64,000 bases of DNA from Datnioides undecimradiatus (lineage: Eukaryota; Chordata; Actinopteri; Lobotiformes; Datnioididae): assembly GCA_008933995.1 (NCBI GenBank), contig WARS01000033.1, positions 4,767,787-4,831,786 of the forward strand, written 5' to 3'. Below are positions 13,141-62,560 of the stretch, one piece after another. Below the pieces are notes generated by a model that did no database searches, was not told the DNA's origin, and saw only the letters and a program-made list of their open reading frames with translations. The first letter of the stretch is position 1. Each line of letters begins with the position of its first letter. The translations under genes were made by a program, and so were the position numbers.

Positions 13141-14892
13141 ATGCCGAAGAGACGAGACATCGTCGCCATTGTGTTGATCGTGTTGCCTTGGACACTGCTC
13201 ATCACTGTTTGGCACCAGAGCACCATCACTCCTCTGCTCGCAACTCGAAAGGGTATTCGAGAATTTGCATGGATGTTTTGAGATTCATTCGTAGTTATCA
13301 AGGCAGTGCTCAGCAAAGGTGTTGCTCACAGCCGGCATCTGAGCGTTCGAACCTGAGGGAGAAATGTCACGTGTTGATACCATGCCATAAAGCACAGATT
13401 GGGTCTGTTTACTTACATCATGAAAGTAGAGCAGTTTAGTCTGCAGTGGCTCCTGTTGGATTCATGTGGCCCTCATTAATACTTTACAGCACACAGAGGC
13501 TCATTGTGATCGTTTCCCTCCTGTCTAGATGACAAACGCGATGGTCGCTCCAACTCCAGGAACACTTTTGCTTTCAAGGAGTCCTGCTCCCTTCAGAACC
13601 GGGACATCGTGGAGGTGGTTCGCACCGAGTATGTCTACAGCCGGCCCCCGCCCTGGTCTGACGTCCTGCCCACCATCCACGTTATCACTCCCACCTACAG
13701 CCGGCCGGTGCAGAAGGCAGAGCTGACGCGTCTGGCCAACACCCTGCTGCATGTGCCCAACCTGCACTGGATTCTGGTGGAGGACTCCCAGAGGAGGACC
13801 ACTCTGGTCACCCGTCTCCTCCAGGAGACAGGACTCAACTACACCCACCTCAACGTGGAGACACCAAGAAACTACAAGATACGCGGGGACACGAGGGACC
13901 CCCGAATACCTCGGGGCACCATCCAGAGGAACCTGGCTTTGCGTTGGCTCCGGGAGACCTTCAACGTAAACAGCAGCCAGTCTGCAGTGGTCTACTTTGC
14001 AGATGATGACAACACGTACAGTCTGGAGCTGTTTGAGGAGGTGAGGAGATATATTTCAAAACAAACTCAAACATAACATAGAGCTGAATGAGTCCTTAAG
14101 ATTTCAACCCCTCTCCCTTATCATCTTTTTTTTAGGTAAAACCTCTACAGTCTGACTTGTGTCTCTGTCTCTGTGTCAAATTACCAGATGCGTTCCACCA
14201 AAAAGGTCTCAGTGTGGCCCGTGGCCTTTGTGGGTGGCCTGCGATATGAGTCGCCTAAAGTCAACACCATGGGCAAGGTGTACGGCTGGAAGACTGTGTT
14301 CGACCCGCACCGTCCCTTTGCCATCGACATGGCCGGGTTTGCAGTGAATCTGCGCCTCATTCTGTTTAAACCTCAGGCTTATTTCAAGTTACGTGGGGTG
14401 AAGGGAGGCTATCAGGAGAGCAGCTTATTAAAGGAGCTGGTCACCCTCAACGACTTGGAGCCTAAAGCTGCCAACTGCACTAAGGTAAGATATGGAGGCA
14501 TGTCTGAAATGTTGCGCAACCTCCGTGAATCTTCTATAAATGCTGCGAGTGTGAGAGGACGTGTCTTAGGATGCATGGCTGCCATGATAACTTGCTCTTA
14601 ATGTCAGTAAACTGTCAGCTTGCAGCCAATTCTTTATGCTCACAGCTCATTTAAAATACGCTACAATCTGCTCCCAGACATTGTGTGGCAGGAATGATGT
14701 CGTATACAACCACAGCACAGCACTGCGGGTCAAAATGTCCGTTTTAGCATTAGATCGTATTGACTGCATGTATGATCATCTCCATCATTTTCTTTTTACC
14801 CGCAGATATTAGTATGGCACACACGGACCGAGAAGCCTGTGCTGGTAAATGAGGGCAAGAAAGGATTTACAGACTCTAATGTGGAGATATGA
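13141..14892 (+). CDS. b3gat1: Beta-1,3-glucuronyltransferase 1 (GlcAT-P, HNK-1 enzyme), 335 aa
   Basis: Four coding exons: 13141-13252, 13529-14040, 14188-14484 and 14806-14892. The spliced frame gives 335 residues against 334 in human B3GAT1 and starts MPKRRDIVAIVLIVLPWTLL. It is a Golgi type II membrane protein with a cytoplasmic basic tail, a signal anchor at about residues 7-25, a short stem and a GT43 domain. It adds glucuronic acid to terminal N-acetyllactosamine, the key step of the HNK-1 epitope on neural glycoproteins. The metal-binding DDD is at residues 196-198 (YFADDDNTYSL) and the catalytic base Glu lies in GGYQES (E285). The start is fixed by an in-frame TGA just upstream in the same exon. 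It ends FTDSNVEI. The downstream neighbour glb1l2 is tail to tail, as recalled for human 11q25. Confidence 0.97.
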
Positions 14893-23700: not shown

Positions 23701-24944
23701 CACATCCCTCCTCACTTATCACTGCTGTGCCGCTAATTGCTTGCTAAGTTGCTGTTGTTGGGGAGATGCCGCTGTTGTCAAGTGGGACCTCTCCGCCTCT
23801 AGCTTCTCCCCAGAGCTCTGGGACTTAGATGATGAGAAGAAAGGGAAGAGTATTCCCAACACGCCTTTAGAGCAGGTAATATTGTTAGAGCAGCTAGAGA
23901 GGCAGTGCAAGGTGTTTTTTTATTCTTATTATGAACATTTGTAAGTCACATATTTGCTTTAATGAGAGCATGGGCTGCACTGCATGGAGATTTATCCTGA
24001 GTGTGTTTTATCTTCGGCCTTACTCTAAATCCAGCTGTGTGTGGAAGTTGAAAACCCCTCTCTCTGGCTGGTGCAGACTCCACGGCACGTACCTGCAAGG
24101 ATCCATAATGGTCTCTGTTAGCAAACAACCAGTCACCTGTATGGAGGAACCAAACACATCCACAGAGGTTTTCCCTACGTAGTGAGTGTGTTGATGCCAC
24201 AGGCCTTCATTTTCACCAGACGGTCCCTCCAGTAGGCCCTGGGCACACGGAAATAGTGGATGGATCCCCCAAGGATGTGGAAGGGCTGACCTTCCAGGGT
24301 GAACTGGGACGAGTTGGCAGTCAGGCCCACCTTCCTGCTCAGCCTCTGCCCCCTTGCTGGCGTGCTGGAAGAGCAGTTGTGGCTTATTTGTGTCACACCC
24401 GTGTAATATAGCACATAGACTATTGTGCTTGAATAGACCACATGACATGCTTGATAGGAATTTGCAGACGTCTTGTGTTGGCAAACGCAACCACAGACAA
24501 GCAAGAGCGTATTTGAATTTAGATGCAAGACTGCAACAGATGAAATAGGCACTTCATTGATTTTATTGATTTTTACTAAACTATTTAAAGTCACTCTTTA
24601 TTCTTTTCAGCAATTTATTCCATCAGCTATAGTGATAGTTTATTTCTTTTTGGTCTGTAGGGTGTCACTTCTCTCTATCTAATATCATGGCACCAACAAT
24701 ATATCTACAGATGGTTGTCTGAAAATCTATAATCATCTGCCTACAGAGACCCGCAGCGTTGCTGTGATCATTTATCCACTTTAATACGTTACCACATTAG
24801 GTACAAGCAGCCTCAAAGTGGCTCTAACTAAAAGATATAGGACATAACTTACCTCAGGCACCTGTACATAATGAAGCCAGCAATGCACAGGCAGACAAGT
24901 GCGTATTTCCTTTTGTGCGCATTTCTTATCTTCAAGACAACCAT
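17728..24944 (-). CDS. glb1l2: Beta-galactosidase-1-like protein 2-type GH35 protein, 635 aa, catalytic Glu replaced by Asp
   Basis: Nineteen coding exons in minus-strand order: 24853-24944, 24179-24364, 24024-24092, 23467-23562, 23050-23158, 22862-22954, 22676-22757, 22533-22597, 22362-22446, 21168-21305, 20872-20952, 20685-20794, 20439-20585, 19655-19726, 19438-19516, 19248-19335, 19050-19161, 18848-18964, 17728-17814. All phases join to 1,908 nt; human GLB1L2 is 636 residues. It starts [18 protein letters not shown] with one membrane anchor (about 15-28), then the GH35 barrel ([27 protein letters not shown]) and C-terminal jelly-roll domains ([10 protein letters not shown]). The acid/base Glu of family motif VENEYG reads VENDYG (D199). 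The nucleophile of MEYWTGW reads MDYWTGW (D273). HGGTNF reads HGGSSF (317-318). The product may be catalytically weak or altered. It could be a fish-specific GLB1L paralogue rather than strict glb1l2. Confidence 0.9.
17965..18060 (+). repeat. Teleost TTAGC-type repeat fragment in a glb1l2 intron
   Basis: GCCAGCTGGTTAGCTTAGCTTAGCACTAGCCTGGCTCT, read here in pieces (GGTTAGCTTAGC, then GCCTGGCTCT), is the core of the same repeat family seen more fully at 19780-20010. A short A-run follows at about 18009. Confidence 0.5.
19780..20010 (+). repeat. Teleost nonautonomous repeat in a glb1l2 intron
   Basis: Begins AAAGGAACAGTTCAACATTT and carries GAGACAGTTAGCTTAGCACA, an AGCTAGCCTGATTCTGTCTG block and a CCACCTTTAATGCT tail in the order typical of a very common teleost repeat. 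It sits between glb1l2 exons 13 (20439-20585) and 14 (19655-19726) and does not touch a splice site. A related block may extend to about 20170. Confidence 0.6.
22639..22658 (+). repeat. (TG)n microsatellite beside glb1l2 exon 7
   Basis: On the gene's own strand this is a CA repeat starting about 18 bases after the donor of exon 7 (22676-22757). Intronic CA repeats close to donors are known binding sites for hnRNP L-type splicing regulators; any role here is inferred. Confidence 0.85.
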
Positions 24945-35731: not shown

Positions 35732-41068
<5,337 letters not shown>

Positions 41069-42065: not shown

Positions 42066-44452
42066 TCACAAACTGGACTGGTCAGGCAGATCCTCCAGGA
42101 GAGCTGGATTTTTTCTGTAGATGTAGGCATTTGGATCATCATCCAGCTTTACCAGCTCTGCCAGCGAGGACACGCAGGGATCATGATCAACCAGCATCGC
42201 CGGCAGGTGGGAGGATTTGCGCTGGATGCGACAGGAACGGCGCACTGGTGTCAGAAACTTCAGGTCCTTGATGTTCTTTCTCCTGGATGCACTTGTGCTG
42301 ACGTCCCTTTCGATTGTCTTCTTGACGCTAAACAAAGGATAACTGAAAGGTAAACTACTGTATTGAGGGTCAAACTGACTGTCACTAAACCATGGTCCGT
42401 TCATGAAGTTACTGACTAAAAGGATTAGGCATAAAAAAGCAAGTATTGCAGTGAAAGTTGAAGGACTTACCTTTGCAGGTATGGAGTGGTCTTCACACTG
42501 TACTTTACTACTGAAGCCTCCTCCATCTGTGGTGTGGTCTCCATCACACAATCATCACTTCCTACTTCCTCATCCGTCTGCACTTCCTGGTCACTTTCTT
42601 CATCGCTTTCTTCTACCTCATCTTTCTCTTGCTCAGCCTTTAGCTGCTGGCTAACATCCTCAGGCATGTCATCCTTCATCTCCTCTCTGTTACATTCATC
42701 CTTTGGTTTGCTGTCCTCAACTTCATCAGCGTGCACCTCAGTCACCTGTGAGAGTTCTTAGAGAAACAAAAGTGACTGGTAAATATAAGCATCTACACAT
42801 CAGGCAACATCGGCAACAGTCAGATTAAATATTAATTCTTCTTTACACCAGAGATGTCAGTGACCTGGATAGATGGTTTAAAGACTTTACCAAATGCAAA
42901 AACTCCAAACAAGATCATAGTGGACAGACAGATTAACTTACCATCGCTGCACTTCGAGGGTATCGCCATAGCTTCCAAAGCATCGCACAGGTTCACAACA
43001 ATCTGTCAAAATGAAAACAATGTTAATCACTGTGGGGGGTATTATTTCCCAAACAGCAACAGAAACCCTGCCTGTGTCCTTACATCTTCCACTCTGTCCT
43101 GTGGGTCAATAGGCAGACCTGCGTCAGAGTCTTCCAGCAGGTCCAGGGTGGTGTTCATGATGACTGAAGTTTCACTGCGTGCTACCAACTCCGCTCCCTG
43201 GGTATCTGCAGGGAGCGGGTCAGCAGAGTCTGACTGCTGCGTTTCCAGACATGGTTCAGGTTCAGGGTTGCACTGCACAGCTGGCTGAGAAGGTGGTTTG
43301 AGATCAGCTTCAGGCTTTGTGTGGGCTTTTGTTTTTGAGGGTGCTGCTGCGCTCGTAGCTGGTCTCTTGAGTGTCTTGCCCTTGGAGGCCAGCCACTCTG
43401 CCAGTTTCGCTCTGCAGGGGAACACAAACATTTTAACTTTTCTGATGCACAGCTACTCTCTGGAAAACATCAAAGGTGTATGAGTGAGCAATATTATGTT
43501 ACCTTCTTTCCTCTGCAGTCTCCATGGTAAATCTGTACAGGCTGACAGTGCTTGTGACTGGAGGCTTGATGACCTTCTTGTCTGTCGCTGGAACATTCTG
43601 AGTCCCATTTCTCTTGGTTAAAGCCACTTTAGTGTTCCTGGAGCTGGTACTGGTTAGTGTTGTAGACACAACTCTGGCTGGAGGGCAAGCAGACCGAAAT
43701 CCAGCAAGAGGACGGCTGGTGGCGGCGGGCTTCGACCCATGTGCAGGTCTGTCCGAGGATGACTTGGACCTTGTCTGTGCAGGATTCTGTGTGCCGTGCT
43801 TGGGAAGGTCAGCAACTGATTTGGGCCTGATTTTTGTCACGTTTCCAACCCTCTGGCTCTCTGTTTTGGGTGCCGATGTCTTGGGATCTGCCGCGCCCAC
43901 GTTGGTGCTCGATTTCCAAATTGATCCAATTTTAGACTGGACAATCTTGCCTTTGTACATGCCAGGAGCCGACTTTGATGGTGGCACAGGAGCTGGGGGC
44001 TTTGGAGCTGCTGCAGCTAATGTTTTGCCTTTCACAGCCTGTTCGTTGAGGAATGCCTGGCTATGTGTCTGTCGCTGTTTAACACCTGTAGCAGCAGCTC
44101 CTTTGCCACCTCTCTGCACAGCGTTTGCCGTTTTGAGAGCCTCGCCAGACGTCGACCTTGTGTCCGCCTGTTTGGCCCTGGCTTTAAGAGGACCATTCTT
44201 TGCCAGGTTTTGCTCCGTCTTGTTGTTCTTCAGATGGAAGGGAGCTGCTTTTGTTTTCTCTCTCTTGATGAGGGCCTTGCTCCCATATGCTGGTTCAGCA
44301 TTTTCCTTGTTTGCCTAATACAAACAAACAACAATATAACCAGGTTGGCTGAATGTAGGGAGTAAAACTCTAACACAGCAGGACATGTACTTCATAAGAT
44401 AATGTTAACTTACTTTCCTGTGGTTCCGCCTGGAAACTGCGACGTTGTCCAT
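42066..44452 (-). CDS. CKAP2/CKAP2L-family mitotic spindle protein, 595 aa
   Basis: Six coding exons in minus-strand order: 44414-44452, 43503-44314, 43084-43411, 42942-43002, 42471-42756 and 42066-42327, joining to 1,788 nt. The N-terminal half is a basic, Pro/Ser/Lys-rich disordered region. It is followed by the family signature RFTMETAEERRAKLAEWLAS and KGKTLKRP at about residues 275-300, an acidic Glu/Asp-rich stretch, and a C-terminal block DLKFLTPVRRSCRIQRKSS with MLVDHDPCVSSL, as in vertebrate CKAP2. These proteins bind and stabilise spindle microtubules and are expressed in G2/M. The C-terminus fits ckap2 somewhat better than ckap2l, but the paralogue was not settled. The start codon lies 8 bases into its exon. 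A noncoding exon is predicted upstream. Confidence 0.88.
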
Positions 44453-46275: not shown

Positions 46276-49200
46276 ATGCAGAATCGCTGCGCTGTGCCGA
46301 ACTGTACCAGTAACAAACCCGACCCACAGCCACTCTTCCGGTTTCCACGTGATCCAGAAAGGTAAGTAATGCTAACGCTGATGGTACAGTGAAGAGGAAC
46401 GTCTCAGGCCACTATGAACAGTTATCTTTTTGGCTGTAGCAATAACATGACAAAACGTGCAGTCCAAACAAGGACAACGTTGGTTGACGTGTGTTTCAGC
46501 ATCATTTAAGTCGTTTATTCTGTCCCGTGTCGCATCTCCCATTAGACTCAATGTAGTACAGAAATGGCTATTTACTTCTCAACGTGGAAGCTCATTTCAG
46601 GAGTTTGACAGGTTCTCGCGCCCTTACACACCTGCCACACAATAAGACCTTTTACAGGATAACATGTTCATGCCTTAGTGACTTGCTTTGTCGGTGTATT
46701 TAATTACACCGCAAGAAGCATCAATCCCTACCTGTATTTATTGCATGATGGGAAACATGTGCATTTGCAAATCAAACTAGAGGCACTTGATCTGTAACCT
46801 GTCTGAAGTGCTGTGCTGCATTACAGTTTTTGCAGCTGTGAATTGGAGATATGATCCATCCTCACTAAAGAAACACCATCGCTCCATTGAGATTCATGTC
46901 ATCAGTCAATAATTTATAAGATTATTATAGAAATGTATGCTTTTGTTTTTGATCCATTGCTCACCATTAGATTCGTATAGTCATCAAGACACTGTGCAAC
47001 ATGTTATGGAAAGGGTGCTGGACTGATAAATCACTGAACCTCATGAAAGTTTACTTTTTCCCCCCTTTGAAATGGGTTTTAATTTTGGTTTCACCTCTTT
47101 TTTCAGGTCTAAGAAGTGGGTGGAAAAATGCCAGAGGCAAGAACTTGCAGACAAATCACCAGACCAGCTGTACAGATACTACAGAGTCTGTGGAAAACAT
47201 TTTGAATCATCCTCCATTAATAGTGTAAGTTGTGTTTTTAAGATGCTGATTGCTGAAGACGTGATTTTTTTTGACAGATCGACACCAGAGTTTGCTGTTT
47301 GCAGTGCTGTTATTTAATTTCCAGACTTAATGGCTCAATGCATTTATTATTTGCTCAATATGATATTTTGTACAAGATTTTGTGAATATGCAGGTACTGT
47401 GATCTTAACACAAACTCAACATATGTTTGATGTAGTCTTTATGTGCTGCATGATGAACTATTTTGGCTTGACTTTGTTTTCAGGATGCTCAGGGTGCAGT
47501 TTTGAAGGATGATGCCATACCAACTGTCTTTGACATGCCAAGCCAACCTCAAAATGGGCAGATGAAGCGCAGTAAAGAGCCAGTGAGTAAAATATATCTT
47601 AATTTATTGAATAGTGAAAACTAATTTCTATATATTGAATATTGTATTATATGTAATCTTATTTTTGACTATTTTTGATTTTTTTAGACCAAAGACGATA
47701 AAACAGAGACTAAGGGGAGAAAAAGTAAGTACAGATAATAAACTCATTTTTTATTACTGGACAATGAAACTAATGACTTCCACATGAACATTTATCACAA
47801 GAAGAATGACCTTTTTTTGCATCCGTTTCCCTTTTAGAAATCAAAAAGTCTCAAGCAGAAACAGCTAAGGAAGATGTCCAAGCACTCCCAGAAGAAGATG
47901 AGAACAAAGAGTATCTTAAGTCATTATTTGAAGTTCTTGTAGTGTTGGGAGAGCAGGGCATTCCTCCCACAGGGCCTGGCGATAACAAACAGGACAGCCT
48001 TGGGTTAAGCAACTTTCAGGCATTGTTAGAGTATCGTATGAATTGTGGAGATGAAGTCCTAAAGAAGACTTATGAAGAGAACAAGGAGTTCTGCTCTTCG
48101 GATCAGCTGAATCAGTTGACTGAGGTGTTTGAGAAAAGCATCCGCAGTAAGTTGGTGGAGGAAGTTAAACAAAATGGCTTTTTCTCTTTACTTACTGATG
48201 ATTTGGTGAAGATCTCCGGAGAATGGTACCTCCCTGTCTTTCTGCGTTATGTGGACAAGTCCAACCAGCAGCAGGAGAGGTTTGTTGGATTCTTGTCCTT
48301 TGAAGGTTATGGAGATGCCTTCACAGAGAAGCTCCTGTCTCAAATGACCGATGAATGGGGCTTGGATATGAAACTGTGTAGAGGTCAAGCCCACTCCTGC
48401 TCTGGGACACATTTTAGTAAAATAAAAAGATTTGTTGCCAAACTGGTGGAGAGGTACCCAATGGCAGTGCTTACACCAAGATCTAGTCGTACATTGAACG
48501 TGTCACTAGCAAATGGTATGGCTTTGTCAGGGGTTCAACTTGTCATGTCCACCCTTAGGAAGATAGAGTCCTTGTTCAGTCAGTCTCCTTCACTGCAGCT
48601 GGAGTTGGAACATGCCATTTCCATTTTCTTTCCAGACAAAGTGGAGAAAGCCAAGGAGCTCAAAGAAATCTGCCAAACCAGCTGGACGAGACGGAATGAT
48701 GCATTTGAGGTGGCATTAGAAATCCTAGAGGCATTGCTTCTCTGTGTGGACAGCGTGCATGACAACGAGGACATGAGGTGGAATGATCAAGTCACACACA
48801 ATGCCTTAGAGATTTCAAAGGCGCTGGCAGATTTTGAGTTCATCATGACATTGGTGGTGCTGAAAAACACTATGACACTGACGCGAGCATTTGGTATGAA
48901 TGTGCAAGGGCAAGCAACAGATGCCCACTTTGCTGCAACCAGTTTAAAAGCTGTACTTCACTCCCTAAAGGAAGTGTCTGACAACATCGATGTGTACCAT
49001 GAGTTCTGGAACGATGAGGCAGTTAATCTCGCGGCCGCAATGGAGGTCCCGGTTAAGATTCCTCGCTCATTCTTGAGAAAGCATCAGTTGGAATCTGGAG
49101 CCATTCAGCCAGAGAGTTACTACAAGGAGCACCTGTCTGTTCCTGTGGTGAACCATGTCATGAAAGAATTAAATGAGCTCTTCTCTGAGGACCACCTAAA

Positions 49201-49654
49201 GGCTCTGAGATGTCTGTCACTGGTCCCTGCTGTCATAGAGCAGCACAAGTCGACTGAACCGGAAGAAGAGAGTGTGCAGGTGTTTAAAAATGACATCCCG
49301 AACGCAGGAACCCTCTCCGCCGAGCTGCACTGTTGGTGGGTTAAATGGAGCAAAAAGGGCAAAGGCGAGACTTTGCCCTCCACCCTCAGTGAGACACTGC
49401 AGCTGGCCGACGTGAAGTTCTTCCCAAACATTCTTGCAGTTCTTAGACTGATCGGCATCCTGCCTACCTTGGCTCTGGAGGACAGCTGTGATGTGGCATA
49501 CAAGCGCTTCCAGATGTACATGGAGGACACACCTGAAAAATTCAAATCCAAAAGTCTTGCTCTTTTGAACATGAACTATGATGTTGGGTATGATCTTGAT
49601 GCAATAGTGGAGACCTACATGAAGACATACCCAGACAGGGAGGAAATGTCTTAG
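46276..49654 (+). CDS. thap12: THAP12-like protein: THAP zinc finger plus one hAT-transposase-derived module, 718 aa
   Basis: Exons 46276-46361, 47107-47224, 47484-47582, 47688-47724 (37 nt) and 47838-49654 join to 2,157 nt. The N-terminal THAP domain has the C2CH ligands C5, C10, C57 and H60, the invariant P24 and W33, and the AVPTIF-type box AIPTVF (79-84). A charged linker leads to one large-exon module. It has a decayed RNase H-like part (FFSLLTDDLVKI, LPVFLRYVD, CRGQAHS, then FIMTLVVLKN) and a C-terminal hAT dimerisation-type segment (FFPNILAVLRLIGILP ... SLALLNMN). Human THAP12 (PRKRIR, p52rIPK) has the same architecture at 761 residues and was described as acting on the PKR inhibitor p58IPK. 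The RGQGYD aspartate of active hAT transposases is missing, so no transposase activity is expected. Starting at a Met inside the big exon would lose the THAP domain. Confidence 0.95.
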
Positions 49655-52034: not shown

Positions 52035-53872
52035 ATGACTGACTGCTGCGCCGCAGCGAACTGTGATTACCAGCAAGGTGAATCTGAAAACTCCATTCCA
52101 CTTTTCAGCTTTCCTTCGGATCCGGAGCGGTAAGAGTTGCGCTTATTTTGTTAAGACGTGGGTTAAAATTGAGCCAGTTAGCATGCAAAATGAATGTGAG
52201 CGACCCACTGTTAGCACTGGCGTTAGCTTAACATCATGCTGGCTAACAGTGACACAACTCTGTCGAAAATGGCGCAGACTAACGCTACTCCTGAAAGAAA
52301 AGTCCGTGTGAAATACACTCCGTTTCCTCATTCGGGCTGGGAAACCGACACCGACGTGTGATATTGTCTCTGTTCGTTTATCTTATGTGTCCAGTCTTTC
52401 CACAAACCAAGGGAAACCATAGTTAGAAACTTTTTGTGCTGTAATTTAAATCGCCATCGGTACACGACACCTACCGTCTCCACGGTGTGGTAACGTTAGT
52501 AGGACTGACGTTAGCTTGACTGAATTAAAATACGTCTTACTGATAATGCTGTATAGCGTTATTGTGTCTTTTGTGTACCAAACTGTGCAAATTACAGTTA
52601 TTTTGTATATCAGTTCATTGTTAGCAGTCTAAATTGAAACTTTCATTTCCACGGTTTTAACAGGTGATGCCTCTGAATAAACAGCAGTCTAGCGCCTCCC
52701 ATTATCCCGCTGTTCACTTAGCTCTCCACTGCCGCTGTTTGTCAATTTGAGACCCCTAAAGTATTGTGCAATAACAGAAGTTGCCCCGAAAATCATATCA
52801 GCAGAATTAACTTAATTACTTAACTGAACGACGGATGTGGGCCAACTGGTTGTATCACTGCACGATCTATACAGATCGGAAATGTAACCTCCAAGGCAGA
52901 GGAACGAATGATAGATCACGCAGTTTCTATTTCCATATTCTATCCGGCAATGAGTTAGTGTTTGCTACGTGTGCCCCTTTTTCAGAGTGGTACGCACCTA
53001 ATGATGTGTTAAAAAGAGAGGCGTAATTATTATTTCTTAGCAGTGTGGAAGATGTATCCACACTTATTCTGTGCAGGTATCAATAGGTGACAGAAAGAGG
53101 GTGAGAAGGAGAAGAATAATGACAGAATTATAGAATTGGTCATTATCGTTCCCTTTTTTAATCATCAACCAACAGTGTGCAAGGGTTCATCAGAAATGCA
53201 GCCCATCAAAGTAGCATCATATCGATGGGTGTGCTAGATTTGCCTAGTTGTTGCATACTTGACCTCTTGTAGAAAAAAACTCACGAACCTCCTGATCTTG
53301 CATTTACCTAGTGATTAATTAATACTTCAAAAATAATAGCTACTATTATTATTATTGTTATTATTATACACACTTTCAGTTTATAATACAGAAGACTTTT
53401 TTGCTAATGGGTTAATTTTAATCATTAAGCCAGTGGATATGACCACAACAATTAAGCCTGTTTCTTCCTATATGTTTCAGCTGCAAACAATGGTTGAACA
53501 ACTGTTGTCGTCAAGATTTGGCATCAGAACCTCCTGAGCAGTTGCATACACTGTACAGACTCTGTGCAAAGCACTTTGAGCCTTCTATGATCTCTCATCA
53601 GGTAAGAGGCATATCTGTTGCCCATTATGATTCAGATCCAGTTATACAATAGTGTAGTATGCAGTAGCCTAGTGCATACATAGTTTGGCACCTTAATTCT
53701 GTTGTCATATAGCATGAACTTGTAGTAGCAGTGATAAAAGTGTGATCTACTGCTTTTTTTTCAGAGCGCCTCCAGTTGTGTCTTAAAGGAAGATGCTGTC
53801 CCAACAATATTTGACTTTACAATGCCTGTGAATAATCAATCAGCCTGCAACAGGAAACGAGCTCGAGATCCT
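52035..53872 (+). other. THAP-domain exons of the four-module gene
   Basis: Exons 1-3 encode one C2CH zinc finger (C5, C10, C60, H63) and the AVPTIF box. Despite divergence from the neighbour all zinc ligands, the FPSDPE motif and W36 are retained, so sequence-specific DNA binding is probably intact. No second THAP domain was found before modules 2, 3 or 4. Confidence 0.9.
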
Positions 53873-56800
53873 GTAAGTGTTTCATTCACTGTTTAAAATT
53901 TCCTTTACGACATCAAAGCACAGTGTCTCTAATTATCATTTCCATCTACCTAGTCGGAAGAGGAGCCAACTTCTGTGAAGAAAACAAAAGGTGTAGTAGC
54001 TGGTTAAGTTCATTCTTGAAACATCCTCTTATTTATTCCCTCTGCTTTTTAGTCAGTTTTTAAAAAATCTATTATCCCTTGTGATACATATTCACTGATT
54101 GAATCATCTCAACCTTTCAATCAGCTTTTTTTCTCTCATCCTTCAGAAAGTACAACAACAGCAGAAGTATCTGGAGAGAACAGTGCATCGCCTGAACTGC
54201 AAAAAGAAGAGGATATAGCCAGCTCCAAAGCAAAAGAGACTCTGAAAGTCTATTTCAAGGAAATACTGGCAATGACTGGTTTCAGCATCAATGGTGCAAA
54301 CATCAACACAGATGAGCCTATTGGAGGTGCAAGAGGTCAGCAGGCTCTTAATCGTGTCTGTGTGGAGAAAATTGACAAGAAAGAAATCCTTCAGTTCAGT
54401 GAAGACCTAATGCGGGAGGAGATCCAAAACAGTCTCAGACAGGCACGTTTCTTCTCCATTCTGCTTCAGGATGTCACAAATATAGAGGGTAAGGAGCAGA
54501 TCCCAGTTTTCATCAGGTCTGTCACAGTAGATGGATTCCCACAAAAGCACCTCATTGGGTTCTTACCATGTGACATGGATGCAGAGAATCTGTTTTACAT
54601 GCTTCTGTCTGAGTTGCGAAACAAGTGGGGTCTACGGATGGAACACTGTAGAGGACTGACTTATCTGGTTACAGGCAGTATGTGTCAGAGAATGAGAGAC
54701 CTTACCTGCAGGATTCTGCAGGAGTTCCCACAAGTAGTTCTGTCACCTAGTGACCCATATGCTTTTAACATATGGATTATTCGCTGCATGCCTGTGCCCT
54801 CCATCCAAAATGTTGCAGACACCGTGGAGGAGGTGGCCTCGTTACTCAGGAGAACACCAGAGCTGTGCAAAAGATTGGAAGGAAAAATCCAGATGACATA
54901 CGGGCATATAAAAGGGGAAGTGGACAGGATCAAGGCAGCTATCGGTGAGAATTGGGAATATGGCACTGATGCCTTTCAGACCATGTTAGATATTCTGGAG
55001 CCATTCCTGAACTGTATTAATGAGATGATTTCAAAAGTAGATGAAGATACTGCTGAGCAGATGGCTAAACTCAAGCCAATTTTGAAGAATTTCAATTTCA
55101 TCATCACACTTGTTGTTCTGAAGAACACCCTCTGTTGTGTGAGCATACTCAACTCGAGTCTCAGGGGAATCATTAGCATCAGCAGTACCTTGCAATACAC
55201 CATTTCCAATGCCTTAAAACTGGTTAGCAAATACCAACAGGAGCTGGCAATATTCCACAGGAAATGGTTTTCAGATGCAGTTGGCAGAGCTAAGAAGTTG
55301 GGAGTGGATGTCACCAAACCAGAGATGGACCATGGAGATGCAACTGAAACACCACTGGAAGACTTTTACAGAGAAACTCTGAGCCGGCCTATCCTGCAGT
55401 ATCTTGTTGCAGAAGTGAAAAGAGTATTCAGCACAGAGATGGTGAGGATTCTCCGGTGGCTCTCATTAGTGCCATCTTACATGGCTGACCACAATTTCAG
55501 CATTCGCAGGGATAAAGTAGCGGATGCCAACTTGAACAACCTCGCAAGGCCTGACACATTCTACGAAGAGCTTGGTTGTTGGGAAGTGAAATGGAGACAT
55601 GCAAGCAAGCGCAGGATCCTGCCAACCACAGTCTTTGCTACACTCAAGATTCCTGACATAGGGTTTTATCCAAATGTGCAGAGTTTGCTGAGGGTGTTGG
55701 GCACTGTTCCGTGTGTAAATGCAGAGGCAGATGTGTACGGCCAATACCATATGGTACTGGAGCGGTGCCATGCCTACCTGAGGGCCACACCAGAGGACCA
55801 AAGACAATGCAGCATGGCATATGTCTATGTGAACCAAGATGTGCATTTCAATGTTGAACAAATGGTGGACTCTTATGTCCAGAAGCATCCAGATATCCTG
55901 CAGTTGCTGCAAATCGTGAGTAGATTTTCATAAACAGAGTTCCACTGATATTATAGCTCCTGCTTTAGTGATAAAACCGCTCATCTCTCTGAAATAACAT
56001 TATCCTTTGTGTGTGTTTACAGGATGATGACACAAAGGAGAAGCCTCCTCAAGGTGAGATGACTTTAAAACTATTTGTTTACTTTTTCAGCATTCTGCGA
56101 TTTTGGTTAATGGCTTAGCTACTCTATCCTGTAAATCCAAAATGCACAATTAAAGTGGAAATGTTTTTGAAAAAGTACTGGAAAGCAAATGACTATTGGA
56201 CTTGAGTGGAAATAACTCTTTAATATGCACACTTGGTTATTTAACTGTACTCAAAGTTTACAATATAATTTCCATCTTTCATTTCAGTGGTATCCCATGG
56301 GAACCATGCTGAAAAAGACACTGAAGAGGAATTACAACTCATAAACCTTGAGATGGATGCTGAAAGGCTTGTGGAGATGAAGTGTGCGGAGACTGATAGA
56401 GAAGCTCTTAAATCTGCTTTACAGGCTGCGGTGACAGCTGCATACAGCAGTCAAAGCAGGCAACATAGTGACAGTGCTGCTCAGGATGGAGAGGTGGAGT
56501 ATGTGACCAAGTCTGAAATGAAAGAAGTTCTCACTGTGTGTGAGAATGCTGTCAGGGAGGGAATCCTCATGGAAGTGGGGAGTTCATTCTTTTCCTTGTT
56601 CATTGATCGTGTTGTGAAGCTGGGGGAGGAAGACTATCTTCCACTTTTCCTTAGATTTGTGGACAGTTTTGATGTCATGCGACTGGAGTTGATGGGATTC
56701 CTTGAGGTAGACCTTGATTGTGATGCCATGACGCAGCGTCTCTTGGAAATTGTAACAGACAAGTGGCATCTTGATTTGAATAACTGCAGAGGTCAAGCAT

Positions 56801-59800
56801 ACCTAGGCTCTGGTGATGTGTCCTACAAGCTGAAAGCCTTTGCCTGCAGAGTCCAGGAGAAGTATCCCCTTGCTATAAGCACCCACTGCTCTTCCTATTC
56901 TTTTAACATATGGTGGTCACAATCCATTCCAGTGCCTGCTGTTAAGAGAGCCCTGGATACATTTGAAGAGGTTGTGATGTTTTTTGGCAGCAGCGCTACT
57001 CTACAAAAACAGCTAGACCATGTAATAGCCTTTGGCCTGAGAGAGAGCTATGAAAAGGTCCAGGAGTTACAGGGAAAGTTCTGTGCCCTATGGCAAGAGA
57101 AGCATGATTCTTATGAGGTGTTTGTCCAGATGCTGGAGCCTCTGGTTGAATGTCTGGAGAAGATCAAAAACAACCCACAGAGATGGAAAGCCGTTGTATC
57201 TGAACAAGCTCGGGTACTCCTTCGCAAGGTTATGGAATTTGATTTCATCATTGCTATGGTGGTTTTGAAGAATGCATCCTCCTTTACCAGAGAGCTAAGT
57301 GCAGGTCTCCAAAAGGACCACTTCAGTGCTGCATCCCAACTTTGCCAAATTAGTGGTATTGTTGCGACTCTGAACAGAGTAAAAACAAATATGAAGGTTT
57401 TTCACCAGAATTGGTTTGATGAGGCCTGTGCAATTGCACAGAGTCTAAGAGTGCAGATTGAAGTCCCTGAAAACTCTTATTCAAGAGATGGCATGATGAA
57501 GCCAGTTGGTTTTTACAAAGATGCCTTAAGTGTGCCCCTCGTAGATAACCTTATCAATGCTGTGAAAGATCACTTTTCAGAGGACCACAAAGAAGCTCTC
57601 AACTTCCTCTCCCTTGTCCCATGCTCAGTCACAGTGAGTTATATGTTTGAGAGCCTGAAGTCAAAGTTGCCCCTCTACAGCAGTGATCTTCCTGATGCCG
57701 ACAACTTCTTCACAGAGCTGTGCTGTTGGAGAGTAACATGGAAGACCAAAGTTGCATCTGTGACTATACCAGGGTCAATATTTCACACACTGCGTCTTCC
57801 ACTCATGCAGTACTTTGGAAATATCAACACACTGCTGAGAATTATGTCAGTTCTACCAAGCACAGCACTAGAGGATTGTGGTGTTATAATGCGCCACAAG
57901 AAGTTCCAAGAGTACCTGAGAAATACAAATCCCAAAGACAGGTCCCCATGCCTGGCTATGCTGCAGGTGGGCACGGACTTCAGCAGAGACCTGGACCACA
58001 TGGTGACCCAGTGTTTGAAGGTCACTCCGCAAGCCTTGGAGGGTATCTGCCTGGTATGTGTTTATCTTCTTATTTCTAGTTTATTGTGTTTATTCCCAAT
58101 ATATTACTTGCCACAATGATAAACTTATTTTTTTTATTCACGTGTATATGTTCACAGGATAAGGAATCCAAAAGTTTCACCAGGAACTCTGAAAATAATA
58201 TGGAAGGTATTTCATTATGTTTCATTACATTTTTTCCACAATTCTTAAGAGTCCATAACTAATGTCTTTGCAGAAAGCATTGTTTTTAACAATTTGAATT
58301 TTTGTCATAACCACTTTTGTGTTGCCTGTTTCTTTTTGATATATGTAGTTGATTTTGTCAAAGAGGAAGCTGAAGAGCTGAACAGTTCACAGTCCCCTGG
58401 CAAGATTGAGAACCAAGACATGAAACCAACAGATGAGAATGGTCATGCAGGAGATAATCGTCAAAGCTTGGCGACGGTGTTCAAACTGGCTGCACTACTA
58501 GGGAAAAAGAACAGCAGTCTCTCTGAACTTTCAGAAGAGGACAGAGAACTTTTTATCCAGGAGCTCAGCATGTGCCACTGGTTTGGAAGTCAGAGCAAAT
58601 GCACATCTTCTGTAGGTGATGCTGAAATGGTGAACCTCCTCATTAATGGAATCAGAGATTCCATACTCAAGGAAATACAGGAATCACCATTCTTCTCACT
58701 GATCACAGACAAACCTGTGAAAATTGCAGACAAGACTCACCTACCTGTTTTTGTCAGATATGTTGGAGAATCTGCCCCAAAAGTAGAGCTCATGGGTTTT
58801 TTGCCATTTGATGAAAATGGTCATGTGGATACTCAAGCAAACAACCTTGCAAAGATTCTCACTGAAGACTGGGGCTTACCAATGTCTCAGTGTCGTGGAC
58901 AAGCATTCATGCACTTGGGCTCAGGTTATCAAAGCCTGAAGAAAATGTCTTTGGATTTCCTCACAAGCTATCCACTCTCTGTTGTAACACCCAGTGAGTC
59001 TTGTGGCCTTGCCCATTGGCTGGTAGGAAGTGTGCCTTGCCCCTCAGTGGCAAAAATGCTGGATATCACAGAAGATCTGCTGCTGTTCTTCGATGAATCT
59101 CCTTGTCTAGAGGGACAGCTAGCACAGGCTGTTGATGGGCTTTTGAATATGCCAAGAGAGGCCCTGGAAGAAATACCAGAAACATGTTGCTCCAGGTGGA
59201 AAAAAAGAGAGGACTTCTTTGACATACTTGCCGACACATTAGAGGGCATTCTCAGCTGCCTTGATGCTGTTAGCGCTAGTGCTGTAGGTTCCAAGTCAGT
59301 GCATGCACAAGTTCTCTCTGCTGCTCTGAGAAATATGGATTTCATTGTCACCCTTGTGATTTTGAAGAATGCTTGTGCTCCGCTTCGTAATTGTAGCACT
59401 GTCTTCCGCTGTGGAAACCCTGCTGATATTCTCTGTGAAGTGGAAAGAATCCCTTCGATCATAGAGACTCTTAACAAAATGTTAGAAAATGTGAGCACTG
59501 TTCACTCCACTTGGTTTGAGCAGGCTTACCGGTTAGCAGCCAAGGTAGCTCCTGAACAAGTGTGCTTCTCGGAGGAGATCAACAACTATGAATCTCCAGA
59601 GATATATTATAGAGAAAATCTAAGTGTTCCTCTTCTCAGAAGTCTCATTGATGAAATGAAGTACAGCTTCTCAGACAGCCATTTAAAGGCCCTGTCTGTT
59701 CTGTCACTGCTGCCCTCCTGCAATTCCATTCTGTTGGAGTCCACTGAGAAGCCTTTCAGCCTCTACCTTACAGAGCTTCCTGAGCCTGAAGCAGCAGAAC

Positions 59801-61941
59801 AGGAAATCAACACATGGGCCTCTGTCTGGAGAGAGAAATACCAGGATGTTTCTCCTCCCACGTCCATTGCAGAAACCCTACTTCACCCTGAATCAAAGAG
59901 CCACCCAACTGTTACCTTACTGCTGAGGCTAGTAGCTGTCCTGCCTAGTGTCAGTATGGAGTGTGACCTGATGAAGACCACTCTGAATTCCATGAGGGAT
60001 CTGTTAAAAAACACTGTATGCAAAGGCAGCAGAATGGATCACGTGATGCTCCTCTCTCATTGCACAACACTGCACAGACTGCCAGAGGTTATTGGGAACT
60101 GCATGGAGGTTGATCCAGAGAGCAGTCCATGTCTTTCCCAGGTAAATTTGAAATAGTTTTGAAATAGTTCTTGGTTTAATGTTGTATAAGAAAACAAAAT
60201 TGCAGCATTTTTGCCAGCCATTCTAATCAGTGCCACATGTTTTAGGTAAAGGAAACATTACAAAGACTAAAGTTGGACATTGGTGAGTGCAAACATTTCA
60301 ACTTGATAATAATATTTTGAGAAGAATAGTAGCCAGAAATTTGGCATTGGGGTGTTTTTTTATGTGCAGCTTTACTAATGTATATTTTTTTTTAAATTCA
60401 AATCAGGAGGCAATGAAGTAAAACCAGCAGCACCATCGGAATCACATGCCCCCGGTGTAACGGAGAAGCCCACTGATGGAGAGGTGAAATCGACTCATAA
60501 TGAAGGAACAGTGGAGGTCGCTCAAGAACCAAGAAAAGCAGTGTCTTTCTACGAGCCACAGCTGCGTGAACAAATCCTCAAGGAACTCTGGGACTCTCAG
60601 TTCTTCACGGTTATAACTGAACAGGCTGTGGAAATTGATGGTGAGCTATATGTGCCATTGTGCATCAGGTACTTAAACAAAGAGGACATCCAGTGCGAGG
60701 AAACATTGGCTTTCATCCCTTTTGTTGAAGACTCAGTTGTGCTTGCAGATATCATTGAGACTGCTCTGTCTGAAAAGTGGGGGCTCAACATGGAGTATTG
60801 TAGAGGACAGGCCTCCCTGAGTGTTGGTAAAGTGGGAGCTCAGATGAGGGCTGTTAGTTTAGCTATAGCTAAGAAATACCCCCAGGCTGTAAGAACTGTC
60901 AGCTCTGCTTTGTCCCTTAATGTATGGCTGGCCCGATCCTCTCCAGTTGAAGAAGCAGCAGATGGAGCAGTTCTCATAGGTAAAATATTACATTGGCTCA
61001 CGGAGGATGTAGAACGTCAGAACAAACTGGAAGACATGATCATCCACATTTTTCAGCACGATGAGGGAAGGGGAAATGAGCTGAGAGACAAACTCACCAA
61101 AAACTGGGAGAAGAGTCATGACATTCACGAGGTGATTGTAGAGATTTTAGAAGCTGTCATGCTCTGTTTAAATGAGCTGAAAGGGGAGGGAAGCACCTCG
61201 AACCAACAGCAAGCATTGCAGTTCTTCGATGCAATCAGAAACTTTGAGTTCCTTCTATCAACAGTGGTTCAGAAGAACATCTTGAGTGTAACTAAAAAGC
61301 TTAGTCAGTCTCTTCAGGGTAAGCCCTTAGATATGTTACTTGCTGTGCATAGCTTGCCTGATCTCAAAGAATCCCTCAGCAAACTGAAGAGTGATATTGA
61401 CAGCCATCACAAGGCCTGGTTTGAGGAAGCTGTTGCACTGGCTTCTAAACTCCATATAACAATGTTGCATTCAGCACTACTAGAGCCATTGAGCGAGTTA
61501 TACAAAGATTCAGTAAGCATGAGAGTTGTAGAGCACTCAATAGCAGAAATGGATGACCTCTTCACAGAGAAGGTATTGGATACCTTGAGGTGTCTGGAGA
61601 TTGTGCCTTACGCAATGTCCAAAGTAGAAACCAGCATTCTCAGCGGTCTTGTATTCCGCCTTTACAAGGACGACTTGCCAGATCAGGTCTCTATTCACTC
61701 TGAGATAAAGTTGTGGAAGGAGAAATGGTTGGATCCCCTGGGAGGCTATCTCCCAACTACTGTGCTTGATACACTCAAGACATCACAGATAAGAAGTTTT
61801 AGTAACATTGAAACTCTCCTCAGACTCCAGGTCATCTTGCCGTTCTCAAGGAGGGAGAGCAACTTCAGGCAGGGAAAAAAAAGCTTACAGGAGTTCATAC
61901 AGCAGGAAAAGCGATCCCTTACTGAGCTACATCTTCTGTAA
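52035..61941 (+). CDS. Giant THAP protein with four tandem hAT-derived THAP12 modules, 2,446 aa
   Basis: Eleven coding exons: 52035-52129, 53481-53601, 53765-53872, 53954-53990 (37 nt), 54147-55915, 56023-56053 (31 nt), 56288-58053, 58158-58206 (49 nt), 58349-60141, 60246-60282 (37 nt) and 60407-61941. All splice sites are GT-AG and the joined frame is open for 7,341 nt. The THAP domain has C5, C10, C60, H63, P27, W36 and the box AVPTIF (83-88). Four THAP12-type modules follow at residues about 121-710, 721-1309, 1326-1923 and 1936-2446, each in one large exon. Every linker mini-exon enters in phase 0 and exits in phase 1, and every large exon does the opposite, so each pair is a frame-neutral cassette. 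It is the tandem neighbour of single-module thap12, with the same THAP-exon pattern (86/118/99/37 versus 95/121/108/37 nt). Function unknown; a DNA-binding, multivalent dimerising nuclear protein is a reasonable inference. Separate transcripts ending after each module cannot be excluded. Confidence 0.85.
54147..55915 (+). other. Module 1 exon (hAT/THAP12 type)
   Basis: 589 codons. Landmarks: FFSILLQDVTNI, QIPVFIRSVT, KWGLRMEHCRGLTYL (Q of the usual CRGQ replaced by L), FIITLVVLKN, LSRPILQYLV, FYPNVQSLLRVLGTVP and a C-terminal MVDSYVQKHPD. Ends in phase 0 at CAAATC/GTGAGT. Reading into the intron would stop after five codons. Confidence 0.85.
56288..58053 (+). other. Module 2 exon (hAT/THAP12 type)
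   Basis: Entered in phase 1 after a 31-nt linker exon (DDDTKEKPPQ). Landmarks: FFSLFIDRVVKL, YLPLFLRFVD, KWHLDLNNCRGQAYL, FIIAMVVLKN, LSVPLVDNLI and QYFGNINTLLRIMSVLP. Ends in phase 0 at ATCTGCCTG/GTATGT. Intron read-through would add a short hydrophobic tail before a stop at 58117-58119. Confidence 0.85.
58349..60141 (+). other. Module 3 exon (hAT/THAP12 type)
   Basis: Follows a 49-nt linker exon (DKESKSFTRNSENNME). Landmarks: FFSLITDKPVKI, HLPVFVRYVG, DWGLPMSQCRGQAFM, FIVTLVILKN, LSVPLLRSLIDEM and HPTVTLLLRLVAVLP. 597 codons, ends in phase 0 at TCCCAG/GTAAAT. Confidence 0.85.
60407..61941 (+). other. Module 4 exon (hAT/THAP12 type), C-terminally shortened
   Basis: Follows a 37-nt linker exon (VKETLQRLKLDI). 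Landmarks: FFTVITEQAVEI, YVPLCIRYLN, KWGLNMEYCRGQASL, FLLSTVVQKN, MRVVEHSIAEM and SFSNIETLLRLQVILP. It stops at 61939-61941, about 30 residues before the usual module end. In another frame just after the stop, LPSQLADLSNVLKMSP resembles the missing tail, suggesting an old frame change near the 3' end. Confidence 0.8.
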
Positions 61942-62560
61942 GAGCTGCAGGTCTTCCGTCACAGCTAGCAGATTTGAGCAATGTGCTCAAGATGTCACCG
62001 CCACCATACTTAAGAACTAATTTGTCTCAACCCAATTTGAGGTCCCAAGTTCTGAACTCAAGATTTCTGTGTACATTATTGATCTAAATACTTTGAGATT
62101 TCCGTTTTGTTGTTATCCCACAATCCAAGCCCTATGTTATGTTTTTTTTTTTTTTTATTCTCTAGTTTGTACAGTTGTACTACCCAATGGGACCAATGTC
62201 TTGGCAAAAAAAGCAATGCTCCACTGACGGTTATCAATGCTTGTGCCTTGATGCAAAACTAATAATTCACCCCATGTATCATGATAATACAGATGTTGAA
62301 AAATGTCCCATTGGCAGTAACTGACCTCTGTATAACTGTCATGAATTTATTATAATTATTAAATCGCACCCTTATCTTTCCCGGGCACAAATAGAAATGG
62401 TTAGTTCCATAATGTCTTCTGATGATTTTCCCATGTTTCCTGTCTCTTTGCAGGAATGAATTTGCTGTAAACGTATCTTTGAAAGAATGTTTCCTCAATA
62501 GGAAAACCTTCATATATATTTGTCAAAAAAGTAATAAAATGCTCCAAAAGATGTTTGGCT
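61942..62560 (+). other. 3' UTR of the four-module THAP gene
   Basis: AATAAA at 62533-62538 is a good poly(A) signal about 590 bases after the stop, followed by a T-rich tract at 62578-62594. A strong donor-like CT/GTAAGAG at 61936-61942 overlaps the stop codon and could allow an alternative last exon. Confidence 0.5.

Follow-up and report, generated by a model that had tools for sequence, protein, structure and literature searches.

A teleost paralogue of THAP12 predicted to carry four hAT-like modules behind a single THAP finger

In this study, we examined a stretch of 64,000 nucleotides (nt) from the fish Datnioides undecimradiatus (GCA_008933995.1, contig WARS01000033.1, positions 4,767,787 to 4,831,786; hereafter, the window) and describe within it a long gene on the + strand (52035-61941), whose 11 exons give 7,341 nt of coding sequence and a predicted protein of 2,446 amino acids (aa). 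The protein begins with one THAP finger, which is followed by four modules resembling hAT transposases. The gene is both a tandem neighbour and a paralogue of THAP12, with the unit of exon 4 plus exon 5 present four times. An earlier note, made from the sequence alone, had proposed such a protein; its coordinates, exon number, protein length and open frame match our spliced model exactly, and the spliced model, Pfam and a hidden Markov model (HMM) of the module agree on one predicted chain that combines a single THAP finger with four modules of the THAP12/hAT type. With a probability of about 0.4, we favour the reading that this paralogue of THAP12 is a scaffold, anchored to DNA but not cutting it, by which THAP12-type partners would be gathered or limited at promoters.

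Gene model and the repeated exon pair

We regard the four-module gene model as near certain. A scan of the window for open frames found four long ones of 520-635 codons (54053-55933, 56269-58119, 58249-60156 and 60379-61941), and splice sites picked by eye on the sequence and then checked by script join three THAP exons, four short exons and four long exons in a single frame, through ten introns that are all GT-AG. The exon lengths are 95, 121, 108, 37, 1,769, 31+1,766, 49+1,793 and 37+1,535 nt. Exon 1 (52035-52129) holds the start codon and the first part of the finger, exon 2 (53481-53601) its middle with the C..H zinc ligands, and exon 3 (53765-53872) its end (AVPTIF) and a basic stretch. 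After the finger come four units of 602, 599, 614 and 523 aa, each opened by a short linker exon: exon 4 (53954-53990; 37 nt, the length of exon 4 in both THAP12 genes of this genome) with module 1 in exon 5 (54147-55915), exon 6 (56023-56053; 31 nt) with module 2 in exon 7 (56288-58053), exon 8 (58158-58206; 49 nt) with module 3 in exon 9 (58349-60141), and exon 10 (60246-60282; 37 nt) with module 4, its shortened C-terminus and the stop codon in exon 11 (60407-61941). Two polyadenylation-signal words follow on the same strand, at 62358 and 62533 (together 62358-62538), in the region scanned from the stop codon to 63500.

Each repeat unit consists of a short exon (31-49 nt, length 1 mod 3) entered in phase 0 and a long exon (1.5-1.8 kilobases, kb) entered in phase 1. 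The six introns before exons 6-11 all repeat the phase pattern of exons 4 and 5, an outcome expected about once in 729 under random phases. Since the phases are preserved, the repeated unit is the pair of exons 4 and 5 known from THAP12. The earlier note had described four successive exons, each encoding a complete module; the four modules stand, but the unit is two exons rather than one, and module 4 lacks the C-terminal tail.

The four window modules are 24-29% identical to one another, well below half, as had been judged by eye. The module HMM gave four matches in order on the window protein at 595-754 bits, scores that are flattered because it was built from these four modules and 19 THAP12 sequences; the long protein of Morone saxatilis, absent from training, scored 565-732 bits per module. 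Pfam DUF4371 reached a useful score in the window for module 2 alone (E 1.2e-5; 25.8 bits against a cut-off of 32.1), and it passes the Pfam cut-off in the Morone and Conger orthologues. An NCBIfam search of the predicted protein gave no match.

Origin beside THAP12 and conservation in teleosts

The gene directly upstream of the long one, also on the + strand, is a THAP12 with a single module (46276-49654; 718 aa) and the same exon layout. This neighbour, new here and missed by the earlier note, would explain the origin of the long gene. Its exons of 86, 118, 99, 37 and 1,817 nt lie at 46276-46361, 47107-47224, 47484-47582, 47688-47724 and 47838-49654, the last encoding its single hAT-like module and the stop codon. 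The long gene shares the five exons of THAP12, including the short fourth one with its phases 0/1, and four coding introns are given for human PRKRIR/THAP12 in the part of the source available (PMC3257199). THAP12 has exactly one module; the long gene has four, and it is therefore filed as a THAP12 paralogue and not as THAP12.

A bowfin THAP12 query against the whole genome gave at least 15 matches. It is 57% identical to the upstream THAP12, 62% to a second THAP12 of this genome, on contig C463, which also has a 37-nt exon 4, and 32-35% to the four modules; the remaining matches are finger exons of THAP12-type genes and four weak ones elsewhere. Genome-wide, with counts as lower bounds, this query places the four modules at this locus only. 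Compared directly with the THAP12 module, modules 1 and 2 are 26-33% identical. The THAP12-like protein and the long protein of Umbra pygmaea bear consecutive locus tags (UPYG_G00121410 and UPYG_G00121420) and are recorded on contigs of equal length, as expected of a conserved tandem pair.

To the full-length protein search, which admitted only proteins of 0.55-1.75 times the query length and so kept short models outside its count, 169 matches were found at E <= 0.001, 120 of them listed. Those listed that name an organism are all teleosts by reading of the names, with identity to the window protein of up to about 91% over the full length in percomorphs and 61-65% in eels, bonefish, a mormyrid and herrings; the identities of the homologues span 61-92% in all. 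A search of fish proteins for repeated hAT modules behind a THAP finger had been proposed earlier, and here, of the 120 long homologues listed, 117 matched the module HMM four times and the other 3 three times. One of these exceptions is a goby model that lacks module 4, and the other two are pipefish X2 isoforms of the same length (P0119 and P0120). Within P0119, which is without module 2, the N-terminal stretch of that module runs straight into the following linker exon, as if the module body had been removed by splice choice; Syngnathus acus, its source, has a four-module model as well. A further search used modules 3-4 of the eel Conger, a query chosen to rank orthologues from gar, bowfin and sturgeon high (bowfin THAP12 is in the database); it gave 166 matches, and among the 120 listed the named species were again all teleosts. 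As far as the matches listed show, the long gene is teleost-wide. Databases already hold its product, a conserved, uncharacterised teleost protein often named si:dkey-250d21.1.

Conservation was measured on an alignment of the window protein with the 117 four-module proteins (118 rows). On average, the commonest residue reaches a frequency of 0.906, 0.905, 0.856 and 0.838 in the cores of modules 1-4, 0.778 in the finger and 0.756, 0.771, 0.713 and 0.542 in the linkers. Between the window and Conger, identity is 77, 81, 63 and 58% in modules 1-4 and 22-55% in the linkers, and every module core has 57-167 positions that are fully invariant in the 118 sequences. Every core is thus more conserved than the linkers, and the long-term constraint on all four modules for which the earlier note had argued is supported at the level of sequence. 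At 25 alignment columns the same residue occupies all four modules at a frequency of at least 0.97, while 13 columns are conserved equally strongly inside each module and differ between modules; the modules are therefore not interchangeable copies. Separately, linker 3, between modules 3 and 4, is hypervariable, with a median of 19 residues between HMM matches. It is long and repeat-rich in 11 of the 117 four-module proteins (salmonids and Umbra) and in the characins P0199 and P0200, growing to about 340-390 aa in Oncorhynchus keta and, in the two characin models, to about 950-1,280 aa.

A module tree of 43 rows, taken from 8 of the 118 long proteins and 11 THAP12 sequences, placed each module number, and likewise THAP12, in its own clade with full support, the module stems measuring 1.3-1.8 changes per column. 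The module clades span the sampled teleosts; thus, the four modules were distinct before these diverged. The best tree joins modules 2 and 3 (support 91/84); by the approximately unbiased (AU) test, enforcing the pairing of modules 3 and 4 gave a p-AU of 0.0435 and the other four pairings 0.11-0.31, values in which long branches are in play. Long branches also bear on the grouping of the modules with the neighbouring THAP12 copy and its Umbra counterpart (65/77), and the alternative grouping with bowfin THAP12 is not rejected (p-AU 0.455). We infer that a whole THAP12-type gene would have duplicated first, after which successive tandem duplications of the exon 4+5 unit would have led to four copies. 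The neighbouring THAP12 copy itself evolves fast, with an end branch of 0.55 against 0.03-0.45 in the other ten THAP12 rows, and seems to have been relieved of part of its role.

Finger, active sites and proposed function

The THAP finger occupies residues 5-88 (Pfam E 8e-19). We compared it with the THAP12 fingers of Amia, Megalops, Paramormyrops and the C463 gene; the THAP rows L002, L003 and L007 were left out, and the C463 row has one surplus residue (alternative splice acceptor). Against these four, the window finger is 47-52% identical, a range that also covers all five THAP12 fingers compared, the orthologue fingers of Conger, Chanos and Paramormyrops 57-65% and that of Salmo 52-56%; fingers of the long proteins are 43-50% identical to the fast neighbouring THAP12 copy and 23-35% to two other THAP domains of this genome. 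Both the pattern of zinc ligands and the AVPTIF-type motif are preserved in the window protein as well as in all three orthologues checked. Judged by sequence identity, the finger has diverged less from THAP12 than the modules.

Catalytic positions were placed by comparison with L023 (G000:C464:4879075-4879437), a broken-frame DUF4371-type hAT relative elsewhere in the genome, whose VDETTD and CFDGAAVM motifs we take to mark the two catalytic Asp residues. The window protein has Gln, Leu and Glu at the three catalytic positions of module 1, Asp, Leu and Glu in module 2, Asp, Met and Glu in module 3, and Glu, Leu and Glu in module 4. Across the 118 rows, the first position is Gln in 117 for module 1, Asp in 118 for module 2 and in 117 for module 3, and, in module 4, Glu in 110, Asp in 5 and another residue in 3. 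No row of any module has Asp at the second position, where Leu (113), Leu (118), Met (115) and Leu (116) predominate in modules 1-4 and the rest are made up of Leu, Met, Val or Ile and one gap; the second Asp is missing in 8 of 8 THAP12 proteins checked as well. At the third position, 117, 118, 118 and 118 rows retain Glu. The Asp-Asp-Glu (DDE) triad is incomplete in all four modules, and the modules are unlikely to cut DNA because the second catalytic Asp is gone in every one. The term nuclease-dead, used in the earlier note, rests on this loss, given that the Glu is kept in all modules and the first Asp in modules 2 and 3.

The predicted structures of modules 1 and 4 have Hermes as their best solved-structure match over most of the module (VIA-align 2), and the predicted models have an RNase H-like fold with an all-helical insertion, as in Hermes. 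By inspection of the module 1 model, positions 107 and 173 come directly after strands 102-106 and 167-172, and so are predicted to sit where an RNase H nuclease has its first two catalytic residues. Foldseek against the PDB alone gave no match for module 1 at E <= 0.001, so the claim of a hAT fold rests on the VIA-align 2 re-ranking and on two separate models; a PDB sequence search with module 1 returned nothing usable.

Human THAP12 is described, in the sections available of a 2026 preprint, as a nuclear, promoter-binding activator of the complex I assembly genes NDUFAF3, NDUFAF4 and BOLA3, for which its DNA-binding domain is required (PMC13404843). For the long protein as a scaffold, the finger would still read THAP12-type sites, because it has stayed THAP12-like; the modules would no longer be enzymes but simply surfaces for binding, which would pair with each other in the same chain or with THAP12, so that one bound finger would present as many as four distinct surfaces. 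If human THAP12 is a guide, promoters of assembly genes for mitochondrial complex I might be among the targets, which is the weakest step. Weighing against the scaffold, conservation among orthologues is lower in the finger than in the module cores (0.778 vs 0.838-0.906). Hermes, a hAT relative, assembles as a tetramer of dimers. Quite tentatively, the four dead, non-equivalent hAT modules might form a covalently tethered, ring-like assembly that one THAP finger anchors to DNA and that THAP12 subunits join, which would make a teleost-only asymmetric complex.

A dominant antagonist of THAP12 is an unlikely alternative that nevertheless deserves weight: its one finger would occupy the same promoter sites, and THAP12 subunits would be trapped in unproductive assemblies. 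The THAP12-like finger and the adjacency to THAP12 are consistent with it, as is the modules' loss of similarity to THAP12, which would fit a loss of activating contacts; such an antagonist, however, would not need four different modules held under constraint. We consider it equally doubtful that the modules have left DNA regulation to form a cytoplasmic or chromatin platform for other partners, with the finger a relic or a protein contact. The lower conservation of the finger relative to the module cores speaks for this, together with the location of THAP12 in nucleus and cytoplasm and its proposed interaction with DNAJC3, which the available part of the preprint's discussion raises alongside DNAJC3/PKR stress signalling (PMC13404843); the heading of the section on complex I, however, calls the role of human THAP12 there PKR-independent (PMC13404843). 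Also against a platform are the intact zinc-ligand pattern and AVPTIF-type motif, and the fact that the fingers of the window, Conger, Chanos, Paramormyrops and Salmo remain 47-65% identical to those of THAP12, with the fast neighbouring copy (43-50%) set aside.

It is improbable that the long protein is an anti-transposon device, a broken transposase array that binds the ends or the transposases of related hAT elements and blocks them. The predicted fold is hAT-like, and in L023 the genome has at least one DUF4371-type hAT relative that is broken but retains both of the catalytic Asp motifs; the deep constraint in the listed teleosts, however, contrasts with the fast turnover expected of a defence gene, and DUF4371 places were few in this genome, just five (a lower bound), three of them outside THAP12 genes.

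A search with a 710-aa query gave 75 matches, ten of which are models of 686-784 aa that comprise just the finger and module 1 (P0121-P0126, P0129, P0166, P0168 and P0171). At least seven of the ten continue past the donor of exon 5 and end inside the intron; in the window, such read-through (55916 onward) would stop after five codons. These ten may be gene-model shortfalls or a short, THAP12-sized isoform. Along with many unnamed predictions that are single-exon fragments of module 1, they are what could be said for the long protein being an artefact of annotation or assembly, or several genes whose transcripts end with module 1 or begin anew at every large exon. We reject this as highly improbable: the gaps between exons from one module to the next are just 104-234 nt, their splice sites fit the consensus and their phases match; the four modules are joined in nearly all of the listed long models and are all constrained; Cyprinodon variegatus and Periophthalmus magnuspinnatus each have a short model and a four-module model; and from exon 5 to the stop codon there is a single polyadenylation word, within the intron before exon 7. 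That the gene is a decaying duplicate, open by chance, is rejected with next to no reservation, for in spite of a shortened module 4 and freely diverging linkers, 117 of the 120 homologues listed still have all four modules, with their 57-167 invariant positions per core.

Known systems and neighbouring sequence

The closest known system is THAP12 (PRKRIR, THAP0, p52rIPK; fish thap12a/thap12b), which shares with the long protein the N-terminal THAP finger, the first five exons and their phases, the 37-nt exon 4 and a homologous hAT/DUF4371 module, and whose gene lies next door. It differs in having one module in about 706-766 aa, and compared with human THAP12 the long protein reverses the economy, with four bodies to one finger. 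Hermes and other hAT transposases share the solved-structure match of modules 1 and 4 and the position of the third catalytic Glu; unlike them, the long protein has its second Asp replaced in all modules and its first in two, a THAP instead of a BED finger, and four modules in cis. To our knowledge, domesticated transposases contribute one transposase body per protein. ZBED, CGGBP and other hAT-derived regulators likewise reuse hAT parts for DNA-binding regulation (PMC10027918), and the descriptions examined include no repeated transposase module. Nor did we find a repeated hAT module behind a THAP finger described in the open-licence literature, which omits most subscription papers.

Many listed full-length orthologues bear the name of zebrafish si:dkey-250d21.1; its own sequence is absent among the matches listed, and the link is that of NCBI naming alone. 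The literature found on it, in the parts available, comes to one table entry, from larval eye proteomics of the zebrafish dye mutant, where F1QRG5 (si:dkey-250d21.1) was 1.58-fold up with trichostatin A at 5 days post-fertilisation (PMC5595969), and one entry in a list of unannotated responders, as a transcript in a flame-retardant study (PMC8063052). If our reading holds, the long gene would be an unstudied partner or rival of THAP12, itself recently linked to mitochondrial complex I disease. In the listed teleosts, the host has multiplied a transposase body fourfold behind one finger and kept each copy with its own conserved residues, which poses the testable question of whether hAT oligomerisation can be fixed in one chain to make an asymmetric regulator. 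Zebrafish carries si:dkey-250d21.1, and mutants are easily made there.

Elsewhere in the genome, three THAP domains lie within about 9 kb on one strand (G000:C476:3731502-3740682), possibly a THAP gene cluster. The window also holds ordinary flanking genes, with a domain match in 5 of the 8 frames scanned; the frames at 13510-14601, 24175-24597 (- strand), 37641-37982 and 42066-42551 (- strand) match Glyco_transf_43, Glyco_hydro_35, STT3 and CKAP2_C domains.

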